Origin: Williamsia sp. 1138
GTDB taxonomy: Bacteria > Actinomycetota > Actinomycetes > Mycobacteriales > Mycobacteriaceae
Assembly: GCF_002095435.2 (NCBI RefSeq)
Contig: NZ_MJEJ02000030.1
Location: 1-64,000 of the forward strand
Reading direction: 5' to 3'
Length of the DNA: 64,000 nt
Below the pieces are notes generated by a model. That model did no database searches. It saw only the letters and a program-made list of their open reading frames with translations, and was not told where the DNA came from. A program made the position numbers and the translations under genes. The stretch's first letter is position 1, and every line of letters starts with the position of its first letter. Shown one piece after another: positions 19,600 to 27,325 of the stretch.

Positions 19600-19923
19600 G
19601 TGATTTTCATCGTGGTCAAGTTCCAGGTGAAGCCCGAGTGGACCGACCGCTGGTTGGACCTCGTCGATCCCTTCACGCAGGCAACCCGCGCCGAGCCGGG
19701 CAACAAGTGGTTCGACTGGTCGCGCAGCGTCGATGACCCCAACGAGTTCGTCCTCGTCGAGGCCTTCGAAGACGATGCGGCGGGGCCACACGTCAACAGC
19801 GACCACTTCAAGAAGGCGACGCAGGAGGAGATGCCGCAAGCCCTGGTGTCGACGCCACGGATCATCAGCCACACCATCGACGCAGACGACTGGTCGGCGA
19901 TGGGCGAGATCACCATCGATTGA
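19600..19923 (+). CDS. antibiotic-biosynthesis-monooxygenase-fold protein
   Basis: A 107-residue ferredoxin-like-fold protein of the ABM family (VVKFQVKPEWTDRWLDLVDPFTQATRAEPGNKWFDWSRSVDDPNEFVLVEAFEDD). Similar small proteins act as quinol monooxygenases or heme/quinone-binding enzymes, without a cofactor motif. The conserved His lies in HVNSDHFKKA. GTG start at 19600 has GGAGAAG 8 bases upstream. It converges with the metE-like gene; an R1-family hairpin separates them. Confidence 0.82.
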   Translation: MIFIVVKFQVKPEWTDRWLDLVDPFTQATRAEPGNKWFDWSRSVDDPNEFVLVEAFEDDAAGPHVNSDHFKKATQEEMPQALVSTPRIISHTIDADDWSAMGEITID

Positions 19924-19938
19924 CGGGTAACCCACGAG

Positions 19939-20020
19939 TTCGCGCCACTTGCGTGCGTACGCGCCTGTTGCACCTGGCGCGTACGCGCGTAGGTGGCGCG
20001 AATTTCAGGTGGGCGGGCGA
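19939..20020. terminator. R1-family hairpin between convergent genes
   Basis: The outer stem is 10 bp and perfect (19939–19948 with 19993–20002). A long inner stem around GCGTACGC pairs 19951–19965 with 19976–19990. The tail GGTGGGCGGGCGAG is shared with the copies at 8589 and 55508. It separates the ABM gene and the metE-like gene, which converge. Confidence 0.82.
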
Positions 20021-22308
20021 GCCTCGATGCGACGTCGCTGCCGTCGCGCGGCAGCGACCATGTTGCGTAGTGACGGCTCGAGTTGCCAGTAATGCCTGGT
20101 CTTGAGGCCACCGTCCGGATTGACCCACAGCCGCTCCGGATCGATCGCGGCTGCGGCGCGCTTGATACGTTCGTCGATCTCGTCGATGTCAGGAATTGCC
20201 GCACTACGACTCTCGTATACCCCCGGCCCCACCTCACGTTCGATCGCTGTTCCCGAACTCGTGATCTGATCGAGGACCCAGCCGATGGAGCGGGTCGCCA
20301 CGATCGACGTCACGTCGGCGTCGAGGGCGTCGAACGCCTCGACCACCGACGCGATGCTCGAGTATCCGATGTGTGTATGAATCTGCGTCTGGGCCTTGGC
20401 TCCACCGACGGCAAGCTTGAACGCGTTGACCGCCCAGTCGAGATACCCGGCCCGGCCACGTTCGCGTAGTGGCAGTAATTCCCGGATGGACGGCTCGTCG
20501 ACCTGGATGATCCGGATGCCCGCCTTCTCGAGATCGACGACTTCATCGCGAACCGCCAGCGCCAGTTGTTCAGCAGTCTCATACAGTGGCTGATCTTGAC
20601 GCACATAGGATCTCGCCAACATGGTCACCGGTCCGGTCAGGATGCCCTTCACCGGTTTGTCGGTCAACGACTGCGCGTACGTGATCCACTCGACGGTCAT
20701 CGGACCCGTGCGCTTGATGTCGCCATACAGGATAGGAGGCCGCACACACCGCGATCCGTAGACCTGTACCCAACCGAAATGCGTTGTGACGTATCCGTCC
20801 ATCAGCTCGGCGAAGTACTCGATCATGTCGTTGCGCTCGACCTCACCGTGCACCAGTACGTCGAGCCCGATGTCTTCTTGCAGGTCGATCACGCGTTTGA
20901 TCTCGTCGAGCAGCAGTTGCCGGTACTCGTCTGCAGTCAGCCGGCCCTGGCCGTACTCGTACCGCGCCTGGCGGATCTCCGCGGTTTGCGGGAACGAGCC
21001 CAGCGTCGAGGTCGGTACCAGTGGTAGTCCGAGAGCCTGCTGTTGCGCCTCGCGTCGGACGTCGTACGGTGCCCGCTCTCGCTGGTCCGCGCGGATCGCG
21101 GAGACACGTTGACGCACATCGTGCTTCATCTTGAAGTGCACCGACTTGGGGCGATCCGACCAGTGTTCGGGGGCGCCGTGGGTGACGGCCTTCGCGAGCG
21201 CTACGACCTCGCCGACCTTTTGCTTGGCGAACGCGAGCCTGTCCGCGACTTCGCCCGGAATGTCGTACTCGACGAGTAGGTCCACCGGTACGTGGAGCAG
21301 GCTGCAGGACGTGGACACCACCACATCCGGGATGACGGCCTTGATGGCGAGCAGGTAGTCGAGCGTGCGCGCCTTGTCGGCCTTCCAGACATTGCGCCCG
21401 TTGATGACACCCGCGTACAGACGCTTGCGCGCGAGTCCTGGGATCTTCTCGAGACCGGCCGCGCTGATCGGCTCGGATACCAGATCCAGACCGATTGCGT
21501 CGATCTTCGTTCCGGCCAGGATCGGCAGCGCCGCAACGAGATCGCCGTACTGGCCGGTGACGAGCAGACGCGGGCGCTGACTGACGGCGGCCAGCGAGTC
21601 ATAGACGGTCCCCAGCAGCGCCAGTTCGTCGTCGGTCCGGTCGCTGGTGAAAGCCGGTTCGTCGAGTTGGACGCACTTGGCGCCCTGGGCAGCGAGTTTT
21701 TTGAACAGGTGCAGATACGCGGGGATCAGTTCGTCGATCTTGTCTATCGGCGAAAAGCCTTCGGGTGCATCGGGCGCGGCCGCGGAGAGCAGCAGAAGTG
21801 AGATCGGGCCGATCACCACCGGACGCAACTCGATGCCCTGCTTCTTGGCCCTGGCGTGCTCGGCCAGCAACGATTCGGCATGCAGCGAGAAGGTGGTGTC
21901 CGGGTCGATCTCTGGCTGCCGGTAGTGATAGTTGGTGCCGAATAACTTCACCAACTCCAGCGGCGGAAAGTCCGGTTTGCCGCGAGCCAACGCGAAGTAG
22001 AAGTCCAGCGGGTGGAGTTCGGGCTCGAGCGCCGCAAATCGCCTCGGCACGGCGCCGAACATCAGCGCGTTGTCGAGTACGTGATCGTAGAACGAGAAAG
22101 TGTTGCCCGGCACCTGTTCGAGTCCGGTCGCGGCGAGTTCCTGCCAGGTGTCGTCTTGCAGATGCCGCCCGATGGCGATCAGCTCTTCCACCGAACCGCC
22201 GAGATGCCAGTACTTTTCGAGCGCGCGCTTGAGTTCGCGCCTGGCGCCGATGCGCGGATACCCCAGGATCGAGGACCCGTATTCGATCTTCTCCTCCGGG
22301 CCGGTCAT
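20005..22308 (-). CDS. metE: MetE homologue lacking canonical zinc ligands
   Basis: Full-length (767 residues) homologue of cobalamin-independent methionine synthase, with both halves present. N-terminal SSILGYPRIGARRELKRALE and C-terminal LGSFPQTAEIR, VLVHGEVERNDMIEYF, SRCVRPPILYGD, KPVKGILTGPVTML and QVDEPSIRE closely follow MetE. The catalytic zinc site is altered. The family's HTHMCY reads HTHIGY (His kept, Cys to Gly), the Glu of IETSRS is Val (IVATRS), and PDCGLKTR reads PDGGLKTR (Cys to Gly). I checked these codons on the nucleotide sequence and the frame is intact. Normal methyl transfer to homocysteine is therefore doubtful. It lies 13 bases after fadB2 and is probably co-transcribed. 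A canonical methionine synthase may exist elsewhere in the genome. Confidence 0.9.
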   Translation of the reverse strand: MTGPEEKIEYGSSILGYPRIGARRELKRALEKYWHLGGSVEELIAIGRHLQDDTWQELAATGLEQVPGNTFSFYDHVLDNALMFGAVPRRFAALEPELHPLDFYFALARGKPDFPPLELVKLFGTNYHYRQPEIDPDTTFSLHAESLLAEHARAKKQGIELRPVVIGPISLLLLSAAAPDAPEGFSPIDKIDELIPAYLHLFKKLAAQGAKCVQLDEPAFTSDRTDDELALLGTVYDSLAAVSQRPRLLVTGQYGDLVAALPILAGTKIDAIGLDLVSEPISAAGLEKIPGLARKRLYAGVINGRNVWKADKARTLDYLLAIKAVIPDVVVSTSCSLLHVPVDLLVEYDIPGEVADRLAFAKQKVGEVVALAKAVTHGAPEHWSDRPKSVHFKMKHDVRQRVSAIRADQRERAPYDVRREAQQQALGLPLVPTSTLGSFPQTAEIRQARYEYGQGRLTADEYRQLLLDEIKRVIDLQEDIGLDVLVHGEVERNDMIEYFAELMDGYVTTHFGWVQVYGSRCVRPPILYGDIKRTGPMTVEWITYAQSLTDKPVKGILTGPVTMLARSYVRQDQPLYETAEQLALAVRDEVVDLEKAGIRIIQVDEPSIRELLPLRERGRAGYLDWAVNAFKLAVGGAKAQTQIHTHIGYSSIASVVEAFDALDADVTSIVATRSIGWVLDQITSSGTAIEREVGPGVYESRSAAIPDIDEIDERIKRAAAAIDPERLWVNPDGGLKTRHYWQLEPSLRNMVAAARRQRRRIEARPPT

Positions 22309-22321
22309 GACCTCGCCCGGC

Positions 22322-23215
22322 TTATCTGCCTGCGCCGGTCTTCGCCGGGCTGTCCGCGTACACGTAGAAGCCGTGGCCGGCTTTCTTGCCCAACCGACCG
22401 GCCTCGACCATACGTAGTAGTAGCGGCGGCGGAGAATACAGCGGCTCTTTGAATTCTTCGTACATCTTGTCGGCGATCGCCTTCACGGTGTCGAGGCCGA
22501 CGAGGTCGCTGAGCTTGAGCGGACCCATCGGGTGTGCGCAGCCGAGCACCATCGCCTTGTCGATGTCTTCGACGGTGGCAAAACCGCTCTCCACCATGCG
22601 GATCGCCGAGAGGAGGTAAGGCACCAGCAAGGCGTTGACGACGAATCCGGAGCGGTCCGAGGATCGGACGACCTGCTTGCCGAGGATGTCGTGGGCGAAG
22701 GCCTCGGCGCGCGCGGTGACGTCGTCCGAGGTCATCAGCGTGGTGACCAACTCGACAAGCGGCAACACCGGTACGGGGTTGAAGAAGTGCATTCCGACCA
22801 CACGATGAGCGTTGGCAGTTGCCATGCCCAACTTCATGATGGGAATCGAAGACGTGTTGGAAGCAAGCACGGCATTGGGGTCCGTGACCACCTTGTCGAG
22901 CTGTTTGAAGATCTCGGTCTTGACGGCCTCGTCTTCGACCACCGCCTCACACACCATCTGCCGGTCAGCGAAATCGCCCAGATCGGAGGTGAAGCGCAGC
23001 CGCCACGATGCCTGTTCCCGCTCACGTTCGGTGAGTTTTCCGCTGCTCACACCGCGATCGAGGGAGCGCAGGATGCGGGACCGTCCAGCGGCTGCCAATT
23101 CACGGGTCGTCTCGTACACCAACACGTCGGCGTGCGCCCGGGCACAGACTTCGGCAATGCCTGCGCCCATCTGACCGGCACCGATTATGCCGACCCGCGA
23201 AATCTTCTCGCTCAC
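22322..23215 (-). CDS. fadB2: 3-hydroxybutyryl-CoA dehydrogenase FadB2
   Basis: A 297-residue NAD(P)-dependent 3-hydroxyacyl-CoA dehydrogenase. The Rossmann motif is GIIGAGQMGAGIAEV. The active-site His and Glu lie in HFFNPVPVLPLVE, with SNTSSIPI upstream and the C-terminal helical domain GFVVNALLVPYL. It interconverts acetoacetyl-CoA and 3-hydroxybutyryl-CoA in short-chain fatty-acid or storage metabolism. GTG start at 23215 has AGGAG upstream. It is downstream of aceA as in M. tuberculosis (Rv0468/Rv0467) but separated from it by a terminator, so it has its own A-rich leader. Confidence 0.95.
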   Translation of the reverse strand: MSEKISRVGIIGAGQMGAGIAEVCARAHADVLVYETTRELAAAGRSRILRSLDRGVSSGKLTEREREQASWRLRFTSDLGDFADRQMVCEAVVEDEAVKTEIFKQLDKVVTDPNAVLASNTSSIPIMKLGMATANAHRVVGMHFFNPVPVLPLVELVTTLMTSDDVTARAEAFAHDILGKQVVRSSDRSGFVVNALLVPYLLSAIRMVESGFATVEDIDKAMVLGCAHPMGPLKLSDLVGLDTVKAIADKMYEEFKEPLYSPPPLLLRMVEAGRLGKKAGHGFYVYADSPAKTGAGR

Positions 23216-23427: not shown

Positions 23428-24723
23428 TTAGTGGAATTGGCCCTCTTCGGTGCTTCCGGCCAGCGACGTGGTGCTGCTGGTCGGGTCAACGGTGGTGGCG
23501 ATGTTGTCGAAGTAGCCTGCGCCGACCTCACGCTGGTGCTTGACGGCGGTGAAGCCGCGCTCGTCGGCTGCCTTGAACTCGCGGTTCTGCAGGTCGACGA
23601 ATGCCGTCATCTGCTCGCGGGCGTAGCCCCAGGCGAGATCGAACATGCCGTAGTTGAGCGAGTGGAAGCCGGCCAGGGTGATGAACTGGAACGTGAATCC
23701 CATTGCGCCGAGCTCGTTCTGGAACTTGGCGATGGTGGAATCGTCGAGGTGCTTGCTCCAGTTGAACGACGGGCTGCAGTTGTACGAGAGCAGCTGGTCG
23801 GGGAACTCGCTCTTGACGGCCTCGGCGAACTTGCGGGCCAGCTCGAGATCGGGGGTGCCGGTCTCCATCCAGATCATGTCGGCGTAGGGCGCGTAGGACT
23901 TGGCGCGAGCGATGCAGGGCTCGATGCCGTTCTTCACGTGGTAGTAGCCCTCTGCGGTGCGCTCGCCGGTGACGAACTGCTTGTCACGGTCGTCGACGTC
24001 GGAGGTGATCAGGGTGGCGGCCTCGGCATCGGTACGGGCGATGACGACGGTCGGCACGTTTGCGACGTCGGCAGCCAGGCGAGCCGAGCTCAGGGTGCGG
24101 ATGTGCTGCTGGGTGGGGATGAGCACCTTGCCACCGAGGTGGCCGCACTTCTTCTCCGAGGCGAGCTGATCTTCCCAGTGGGTGCCTGCGGCACCGGCTG
24201 CGATCATGGCCTTCTGCAGTTCGTAGACGTTGAGGGCGCCACCGAAGCCGGCTTCGCCGTCGGCCACGATCGGCACAACCCAGTTGTCGACGGTGTCGTC
24301 ACCCTCGACGCGGGCGATCTCGTCGGCGCGAAGCAGCGCGTTGTTGATGCGGCGAACGACCGACGGAACCGAGTTCGCGGGGTACAGCGACTGGTCCGGG
24401 TAGGTGTGACCCGAGAGGTTCGCATCGCCGGCGACCTGCCAGCCGGAGAGGTACACGGCCTTCAGTCCGGCGCGGACCTGCTGCACGGCCTGGTTACCGG
24501 TGAGTGCGCCGAGTGCGTTGATGTAGCTGCCGTCTCCGGCGTTGACGCCCTCCCAGAGGATCTCGGCGCCGCGGCGGGCGAGGGTCTGCTCCTCGACAAC
24601 GCTGCCCTGCAGGTTGGCGACCGACTCTGCGCTGTAGTCGCGGGTGATGCCCTTCCAGCGGGGGTTGGTGTCCCAGTCCTGCTGGATCTCGGCTGCGGTA
24701 CGTGGTTTTCCGACGGTGCTCAT
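23428..24723 (-). CDS. aceA: isocitrate lyase
   Basis: Cleaves isocitrate to glyoxylate and succinate, the first step of the glyoxylate shunt for growth on acetate and fatty acids. It has 431 residues, typical of the short bacterial class (ICL1). The catalytic loop is [14 protein letters not shown] with Cys in KKCGH, metal-binding Asp lies in [12 protein letters not shown], and [10 protein letters not shown] is present. The ATG at 24723 gives [16 protein letters not shown], the known N terminus; the longer frame is rejected. The promoter region carries a RamB-like site and two palindromes, and ramB lies 1.2 kb upstream. Confidence 0.97.
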
Positions 24724-25915: not shown

Positions 25916-27325
25916 ATGTCCAAGACCTACGTCGGCGGCCGCCTCCGCCAGCTGCGCTCCGAGCGCGGTATGTCGCAGGTGGCGCTGGCCCAGTCACTGG
26001 AGATCTCGCCCTCGTATCTGAACCAGATCGAGCACGACGCCCGCCCGCTGTCCGTACCGGTGCTGCTCAAGATCAGCGAGGTGTTCGGTGTCGACACGAC
26101 GTTCTTCGACTCTCAGGACAACGCGCGCCTGATCGCCGAGATGCGTGAGGTGGTGATGGACGAGGACGTCGATGCCACCGCTGACGCGCAGGAGATCAGC
26201 GATCTCGTCGCCAGCCACCCCGAGCTCGCGAAGGCGATGGTCAACCTGCACCGCCGGTATCGGATCGCCACCGATCAGTTGGCGGCCGCGACCGACGACC
26301 GCGGCGACGGCAGCATGCGCGGATCCATCTCGGCCCCCCACGAGGAAGTCCGCGACTACTTCTACCAGCGCCACAACTACTTGCACGAACTCGACACCGC
26401 GGCCGAAGAGCTCACCACCCGGATGCGTATGCACTCCGGTGACGTCCGCAGCGAGATCGCCGACCGGCTTCAGACCGTGCACGGTGTCCAGATCGTGCGA
26501 CGGGTCGACCTCGGCGACACGGTGCTGCACCGCTTCGACCCGGAGACCCGGCGCCTGGAGATCTCCGGTCACCTCTCCCCAGGACAGCGGGTGTTCAAAC
26601 TCGCCGCCGAATTGGGGTACCTCGAATGCGGCGACTTGATGAAACAGATGGCCGACGAAGGCAACTTCACCACCGACGAGGCGCGAGCACTGGCGTTACT
26701 CGGTATGGCCAACTACTACGCTGCCGCCGCCGTCCTCCCCTACGCCCAATTCCACGGCGCTGCTGAGGATTATCGTTACGACATCGAACGCTTGTCCGCC
26801 TTCTACGCGGTCTCGTATGAGACGGTGTGCCACCGGTTGTCAACGCTCCAGCGACCCAATCTACGCGGCGTTCCCTTCACCTTCGTCCGGGTCGACCGGG
26901 CGGGAAACATGTCGAAGCGCCAGTCCGCGACCGGTTTTCACTTCTCCAACAGCGGCGGCACCTGCCCGCTGTGGAATGTCTACGAGACCTTCGGGTCCCC
27001 GGGCAAGATCCAAACCCAGATCGCGCAGATGCCCGACGGACGGAACTACCTATGGGTGGCGCGGACCGTTGAGCGCCGCGCTGCGCGATACGGCCAGCCG
27101 GGCAAGACGTTTGCAATCGGACTCGGTTGCGAGCAGCGGCATGCGGCCCGCCTTGTCTACTCGGACGGGCTGGAGATCGGTCCGCAGGCGAACGTCACGC
27201 TGATCGGTGCCGGCTGCCGGGTCTGCGAGCGGGTCAACTGCCCTCAGCGTGCTTTTCCCGCGCTCGGCGCCAAACTCGACATCGACGAGCACCGCAGCAC
27301 CGTCTCGCCGTACCTGGTGCAATGA
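25916..27325 (+). CDS. ramB: RamB-type regulator of acetate metabolism
   Basis: A 469-residue regulator. The N-terminal XRE helix-turn-helix is MSQVALAQSLEISPSYLNQIEHDARPL. An IrrE N-terminal-like region follows (about 210–300, FKLAAELGYLECGDLM). The C-terminal short-chain fatty acyl regulator domain carries three Cys in GAGCRVCERVNCPQ plus more upstream (GLGCEQRHA). In corynebacteria RamB represses acetate and glyoxylate genes and itself. Position beside aceA and the TTTGCAAA site upstream of aceA fit that role. A hairpin follows the stop, before the convergent ABC gene. Confidence 0.92.
   Translation: MSKTYVGGRLRQLRSERGMSQVALAQSLEISPSYLNQIEHDARPLSVPVLLKISEVFGVDTTFFDSQDNARLIAEMREVVMDEDVDATADAQEISDLVASHPELAKAMVNLHRRYRIATDQLAAATDDRGDGSMRGSISAPHEEVRDYFYQRHNYLHELDTAAEELTTRMRMHSGDVRSEIADRLQTVHGVQIVRRVDLGDTVLHRFDPETRRLEISGHLSPGQRVFKLAAELGYLECGDLMKQMADEGNFTTDEARALALLGMANYYAAAAVLPYAQFHGAAEDYRYDIERLSAFYAVSYETVCHRLSTLQRPNLRGVPFTFVRVDRAGNMSKRQSATGFHFSNSGGTCPLWNVYETFGSPGKIQTQIAQMPDGRNYLWVARTVERRAARYGQPGKTFAIGLGCEQRHAARLVYSDGLEIGPQANVTLIGAGCRVCERVNCPQRAFPALGAKLDIDEHRSTVSPYLVQ

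Follow-up and report, generated by a model that had tools for sequence, protein, structure and literature searches.

The methionine synthase MetE (EC 2.1.1.14; Pfam domains PF08267 and PF01717) is a two-barrel enzyme whose zinc is held by His641, Cys643, Glu665 and Cys726; the Escherichia coli numbering of these ligands and of residues 433, 484 and 599, used throughout, follows the available parts of Price et al. (2021; PMC7857596). According to the accessible parts of the Thermotoga maritima MetE structure paper (PMC539065), a tryptophan (561 in E. coli) stacks on the pterin, Glu583 (605) grips the pterin, Lys104 (117) touches its O4, Asp577, Glu462 and Ser411 (599, 484, and 433) hold homocysteine, and His672 (694) is among the candidates for the acid. 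We transferred the T. maritima residue numbers to E. coli by motif and offset. Several relatives depart from this plan. The core-MetE proteins (MesA to MesD) have a single barrel, and in Chloroflexales MesB-like proteins FSHG, YCDQ, or YREQ replaces HCEC, for which another function has been proposed in the portions of Price et al. (2021; PMC7857596) at hand. The activity of single-domain MetE-like proteins is called unclear in the part of PMC4428469 consulted. Here, we describe metE*, a gene on a 64,000-nt stretch of Williamsia sp. 1138 (contig NZ_MJEJ02000030.1, positions 1 to 64,000; “the window”) that encodes a full-length MetE-family protein from which three of the four zinc ligands are gone (Table 1).

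A Full-Length MetE Homologue Without the Zinc Site

The open reading frame (ORF) of metE* begins with ATG and extends over 767 codons without internal stops. Both MetE domains are complete (PF08267, 343 bits; PF01717, 406 bits), which indicates the two-barrel architecture of MetE and separates the protein from the single-barrel core-MetE group. Against solved MetE structures, phmmer gives a whole-chain match (643 bits to 1u1h, residues 12-761). The preliminary description of this locus had claimed an intact, full-length MetE homologue with altered zinc motifs, and we read the same changes: aligned to E. coli MetE (taken from the NC_000913 locus), the protein has HTHIGY, IVATRS and NPDGGLKTR, corresponding to Cys643→Gly, Glu665→Val and Cys726→Gly, with His641 as the only zinc ligand retained. 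Two further hallmarks are altered, as the pterin-stacking Trp561 and the conserved His694 are both replaced by Arg; Lys117 and Glu605 are retained in the window protein. The NCBI model NF003556 scores metE* above its cut-off (944 vs. 541) and TIGR01371 scores it below (881 vs. 930).

Thus, metE* resembles MetE in its double barrel, in an identity of about 50%, in the homocysteine clamp (Ser433, Glu484, and Asp599) and in the basic residues that bind the glutamate tail, and differs from it in the zinc ligands, in residues 561 and 694, and in 26 of the 232 sites that never vary in canonical MetE (from 34 clade and 49 canonical rows, see below). Lacking both the zinc site and Trp561 of the pterin stack, the protein is not expected to carry out zinc-based activation of homocysteine with methyl-folate as the donor. 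Judged from its residues, metE* could hardly be a working zinc- and methyl-folate-dependent methionine synthase, and we do not class it among the methionine synthases, because it lacks both the zinc site and the pterin stack, two defining features of MetE.

Table 1. Features of the metE* locus (positions in the window).
Feature	Position	Strand	Basis
metE*, MetE-family protein of full length (767 aa) that retains one of the four zinc ligands	20005..22308	minus	ORF, Pfam, alignment
Gly733 codon (zinc ligand Cys726 in E. coli MetE)	20110..20112	minus	alignment
Arg701 codon (His694 in E. coli MetE, His672 in T. maritima)	20206..20208	minus	alignment; PMC539065 (accessible parts)
Val670 codon (zinc ligand Glu665 in E. 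coli MetE)	20299..20301	minus	alignment; codon placed by hand
Gly648 codon (zinc ligand Cys643 in E. coli MetE); the HTH just before it (His644/His646) is kept	20365..20367	minus	alignment; codon placed by hand
Arg566 codon (pterin-stacking Trp561 in E. coli MetE)	20611..20613	minus	alignment; PMC539065 (accessible parts)
fadB2, 3-hydroxyacyl-CoA dehydrogenase, 13 nt upstream of metE*	22322..23215	minus	Pfam 3HCDH_N/3HCDH; adjacent upstream in other loci; name from the preliminary description
aceA, isocitrate lyase	23428..24723	minus	Pfam ICL
Short-chain acyl-CoA-responsive regulator, RamB-like, divergent from aceA	25916..27325	plus	Pfam ScfRs and HTH

Among described proteins, the closest precedent is provided by the Chloroflexales MesB-like proteins, which are likewise members of the MetE superfamily without zinc ligands. 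In the available text (PMC7857596), however, they are single-barrel core-MetE proteins from another phylum, whereas metE* is full length and forms a large clade with a fixed locus. In the literature that we searched (open-licence papers, most of them as listings), we found no description of a full-length MetE without zinc ligands. A second comparison is offered by four MetE paralogues of 720-740 aa (L104-L107; family f14, genus group g31), which also lack zinc ligands, with the ligand states QGA-, QGA-, DGA- and HRDH in the four genomes. Unlike metE*, they have a changed homocysteine clamp too, and they occupy a separate branch of the tree.

The Losses Are Shared by a Conserved Clade

A homologue scan of genome contigs gave 285 relatives, and the best 80 of these fall into two sets with a gap between them, one of 33 loci (64-95% identity) and one of 47 (44-52%). 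Cys643, Glu665 and Cys726 are absent from all 33 high-identity loci and from the window protein (34/34), and all four zinc ligands are kept in the 49 canonical-type homologues (47 from the scan and two from the own genus). These alignment sets omit five entries that are the same proteins as others (L001, L002 and L005-L007, identical to L009, L004, L041, L012 and L013) and three that are single-domain or split (L003, L010, and L011). Adding 28 sequences, drawn from 28 genomes in 21 genus groups, brought the clade to 62 rows, five of them duplicates. Both zinc cysteines and the glutamate are missing in every one of the 62 (57 distinct sequences), and the clade is thus, as far as the alignment goes, a large conserved bacterial family without the MetE zinc site. 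The nearest named relatives are proteins of Williamsia sp. 1135 (95%), W. soli (92%), and W. limnetica (89%).

The former ligand positions differ in how freely they vary. Position 665 is Val in 59 rows and Ile in three, 726 is Gly in 61 and Phe in one, and 643 is occupied by seven residues (G29, A14, T10, N4, P2, S2, E1). His639 and His641 are retained in all 62 rows. The retained histidines of the HTH motif could, together with new ligands, hold a metal other than zinc, an option that had been raised in the preliminary description. We find no support for it, as position 643 drifts, 726 is almost always Gly, and no new conserved Cys/His/Asp cluster was seen near the site; a metalloenzyme of this kind is therefore very improbable in our judgment. 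Two clade-specific residues were seen among the 34 rows, a Cys at site 205 (34/34) and a His at site 732 (33/34). The former lies in the N-terminal barrel, and the latter, near the old Cys726, leaves another metal a small probability.

In a midpoint-rooted tree of 102 rows, the 34 clade members form one group with full support (Shimodaira-Hasegawa-like approximate likelihood-ratio test, SH-aLRT, 100) on a stem of 0.77 changes per site. Two long read-through sequences (L055 and L077) were left out of this tree, of the site-state count and of the mean cysteine content. The neighbor of the clade is canonical MetE of family f14, perhaps the Pseudonocardiaceae, from the same order (fork support 94), and not the one found in the own genus.

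The ratio of non-synonymous to synonymous substitution rates (dN/dS) of metE* against its three closest Williamsia relatives is 0.087, 0.108 and 0.090, and six other close pairs gave 0.031-0.072; more distant pairs gave 0.122 (L014), 0.227 (L021) and 0.123 (L027), with dS near saturation. Between the same two species (the own genome and G005, which holds the W. soli protein), canonical MetE has 0.128 and metE* 0.108, and fadB2 ranges from 0.016 to 0.032 in three Williamsia pairs. The tested metE* pairs are under purifying selection. Because the losses are shared across a well-supported clade, selection is purifying and the gene has a fixed place behind aceA-fadB2, metE* is not an error or a decaying copy. 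Sequencing error, named in the preliminary description as one finding that would overturn its reading, is not borne out: 57 distinct sequences show the same losses, 21 genus groups contribute 28 of the 62 rows, dN/dS is well below 1 and the frame is intact, so that we give an error or a pseudogene practically no weight.

Altered Pterin Pocket and Intact Amino-Acid Clamp

In contrast to the zinc site, the homocysteine clamp is untouched. G432, S433, E484, D599, D489, M490, R17, R515, and Arg518 are identical in all 62 rows, and the four clamp sites (432, 433, 484, and 599) have one state each, as do 207 of the 732 sites of the whole alignment. The pterin sites 117, 124, 561, and 605 show 4, 4, 4 and 3 states, respectively. 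Trp561 occurs in no clade member (R53, F6, L2, G1), Lys117 is kept in 29/62 and Glu605 in 53/62, and position 694 is R in 60 rows and H in two. Residues 561 and 605 vary jointly, as only the pairs R-E (53), F-T (6), L-T (2) and G-Q (1) were seen, and two joint changes are required on the tree (55 of the 62 rows, seven near-identical ones being omitted).

Distribution and Other Methionine Synthases

The genome of Williamsia sp. 1138 (54 contigs, 6.08 Mb) encodes, in addition to metE*, a canonical MetE (L009) with the motifs HTHLCY, IEAARS and NPDCGL, two matches to MetH, and a single-domain MetE relative (L003). The search for a canonical MetE or MetH that the preliminary description had recommended thus found both, and the organism should therefore not need metE* for methionine. 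The central suggestion of that description, that the protein is not an ordinary zinc methionine synthase, gains support from these genes as well as from the clade-wide changes, the altered pterin pocket and the conserved neighbors. L003 shares the MetE catalytic domain (100 bits to PF01717) and differs from metE* in having one domain only, in its locus and in being far more distant; we take it to be of the Rv3015c type. It lies at 1477-2490 of its contig (G000:C48) and adjoins a gene that reads by eye, without a family search, like mnmA.

Across the order, metE* is carried by nine of 298 genomes (own included), all from the own family, and in each of the other eight there is a further MetE match (49-52%). 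There are three carriers among the 396 genomes of the phylum sample, and about 183 of 401 genomes in the family sample carry the gene. The last figure is a hand count, namely the 322 genomes with a match at 1e-150 minus the 139 whose best E-value is 1e-236 or weaker (canonical or partial). Since metE* is this common and passes an NCBI methionine synthase model, many copies are likely named MetE; if so, metabolic models and methionine-biosynthesis reports for Rhodococcus and Nocardia may be wrong.

The scan of the 401 family genomes scored two candidates per genome, and we searched the 57 carriers with a single match again, using canonical MetE as the query. In 54 of them this query returned the metE*-like match alone (49-53% to the query), and in three (G695, G890, and G1007) it returned pieces of canonical MetE at 66-83%. 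MetH is present in all 57 (54 above the cut-off and three split or partial) and in all nine genomes of the own genus; indeed, each of the 65 genomes examined for MetH has it. Two roles were consequently rejected: that of an obligate partner of canonical MetE, as no canonical MetE was found in 54 of the 57 single-match carriers, and that of the sole methionine synthase, as MetH accompanies metE* in all 57. Spread on plasmids was also rejected, because among 341 records with a match, only one exceeds 60% identity, a Nocardia farcinica record of 2.66 Mb.

Within Williamsia, canonical MetE is split into two matches (L010 and L011) in the genome holding the Williamsia sp. 1135 protein (G007:C35:171398-173640), and it was not found in another genome (G002). 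The genus may thus be able to do without canonical MetE.

A Probable Link to Sulfur Starvation

According to the available parts of a proteome study of Rhodococcus qingshengii IGTS8 grown on glucose, a protein named MetE (IGTS8_peg5907), which contains 2 cysteines and 7 methionines, is induced 190-273-fold by dibenzothiophene as compared with sulfate. It is very abundant, being among the ten most abundant proteins of the strain's sulfur proteome (PMC8557817). The gene numbers that follow it there are 5938 for choline sulfatase, 5939 for TauD, 5940 for a ROK regulator, and 5948 for MshA (PMC8557817, same parts). For comparison, we took seven Rhodococcus-type genomes from genus group g325, in which the L044 protein is found at 100%, and counted residues from the ATG located 12-13 codons before GYPRIG. 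All seven metE* proteins have two cysteines and all seven canonical MetE proteins have four. In G743 (one contig of 6.3 Mb), the order metE* ... sulfatase, TauD, ROK ... MshA recurs. The distance to MshA there is about 37 kb for metE* and about 0.69 Mb for canonical metE, and mshA also lies 36-38 kb from metE* in G862, G882, and G894. Because the two cysteines and the order of neighbors match metE* and not canonical MetE, IGTS8_peg5907 is probably metE*, as judged from these related genomes. The record that contains L044 (Rhodococcus sp. IEGM 1379) bears a cyanobacterial lineage label, yet its title and sequence are Rhodococcus-like.

If this re-assignment is true, the claim from the biodesulfurization proteome that MetE makes methionine under sulfate starvation would rest on a protein that lacks the catalytic site, and one of the ten most abundant proteins of the IGTS8 sulfur proteome would need a new functional explanation.

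Proposed Function

We lean, on balance, toward metE* being a repurposed MetE paralogue that acts in sulfur starvation on a homocysteine- or methionine-like amino acid as a metal-free enzyme or, less likely, as an abundant binding protein. The double-barrel chain, the clamp (Gly432, Ser433, Glu484, and Asp599), and the loop Asp489-Met490 are preserved in the sequence, and the protein would bind a free amino acid of the homocysteine/methionine type. The side chain of this ligand would be held by the zinc pocket with the fixed Trp672, Glu692, and Gln735 and the nearly fixed Arg694; emptied to mostly Gly/Ala/Thr, Val and Gly, the pocket could accept a larger or uncharged side chain. An Arg561-Glu605 salt pair may occupy the place of the guanidine-like edge of the pterin of methyl-folate. 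The re-assigned IGTS8 data suggest that large amounts of the protein would be made when sulfate is short. Potentially, a new metal-free enzyme on the methionine-synthase double barrel allows Rhodococcus, Nocardia, Williamsia and their relatives to win or spare sulfur from such an amino acid under sulfate scarcity, a possibility that we raise tentatively; the MetE name would have concealed this enzyme until now. The boldest form of the metal-free enzyme would be zinc-free synthesis of methionine itself.

Such a methionine synthase, which would spare sulfur and use Arg694 and Arg561 instead of zinc to stabilize the homocysteine thiolate, would agree with the expression of the re-assigned IGTS8 protein in sulfur starvation, with the low cysteine content (mean 3.8 vs. 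4.8 over the compared stretch) and with the retained amino-acid and glutamate-tail sites. We nevertheless consider it improbable, since the pterin contacts vary within the clade (Glu605 is replaced by Thr or Gln in 9/62, in addition to the general loss of Trp561), and since no genome seen depends on metE*, MetH being present in all those examined.

Could the protein have lost catalysis altogether and sense or buffer sulfur amino acids, or regulate a partner, as a non-catalytic homocysteine/methionine-binding pseudoenzyme? The catalytic parts are gone with the amino-acid clamp intact, position 643 varies as expected of a site without a catalytic task, and the very high abundance in IGTS8 (PMC8557817, available parts) would fit a binding protein. 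However, the new residues that became fixed within the pocket or close to it (W672, E692, and Q735 in 62/62, R694 in 60/62) look more like a re-tooled active site, and an obligate MetE subunit is impossible, as the 54 carriers in which no canonical MetE was found attest. Overall, we regard a pseudoenzyme as rather unlikely. We favor the reading of a metal-free enzyme, and metE* would then exemplify how, in nature, a large zinc enzyme is put to a different task.

Several observations weigh against this reading. The glutamate-tail residues are kept (R17, R515, and R518 in 62/62, K20 in 61/62), which fits continued folate binding, and the retention of Glu605 in most rows is compatible with it as well. 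The 26 changed canonical-invariant sites are only modestly enriched within two residues of known active-site residues (13/26 vs. 49/206, odds 3.2, p 0.008), and the enrichment is not significant without the known residues themselves (p 0.14). As for the re-assignment, methionine counts overlap between the two proteins (8-9 in canonical MetE and 5-8 in metE*, start included), so that only the cysteines and the gene order separate them, and a rough count of ORFs of at least 80 aa gives 33 steps from metE* to MshA in G743 vs. 41 gene numbers in IGTS8. Finally, the tie to aceA-fadB2 points to carbon and not sulfur metabolism, and glucose was the carbon source of the IGTS8 cultures (PMC8557817, available parts). 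Even so, sulfur starvation rather than glyoxylate metabolism may be the more important link.

Genomic Context

The preliminary description had placed metE* with fadB2 next to aceA, and Pfam matches agree. The order aceA-fadB2-metE* on one strand is found in 32 of the 34 loci (window included); in the other two (L024 and L028), the sequence ends within about 0.6 kb upstream of metE* and there is no scored match. In all 28 further loci, fadB2 lies directly upstream on the same strand, with an aceA match somewhere in the same short locus. The fadB2 spacing obtained for L025 came from a wrong match and was disregarded. For the ScfRs-type regulator divergent from aceA, we presume the name RamB. Five of nine same-genus genomes lack metE*, and in all five aceA-fadB2 is directly joined to a gene that lies beyond metE* in the window (ABM in one, SDR in four), which is a clean empty site.

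No Rfam match at gathering thresholds, and hence no riboswitch, was found in the window and seven loci. A stable hairpin between the fadB2 stop and the metE* start was obtained in all four loci that were folded (L023, L138, L022, and L147; z -5.6 to -6.6), and the hairpins of Rhodococcus-type and similar loci differ in sequence and are similar in shape. This fits separate expression of metE* in Rhodococcus-type loci. The 13-nt gap of the window is too short for a hairpin, and in Williamsia metE* is probably transcribed together with aceA-fadB2. On its other side, a gene for a small monooxygenase of the ABM family (19600-19923 of the window) is convergent with metE*, and it directly follows fadB2 in G001.
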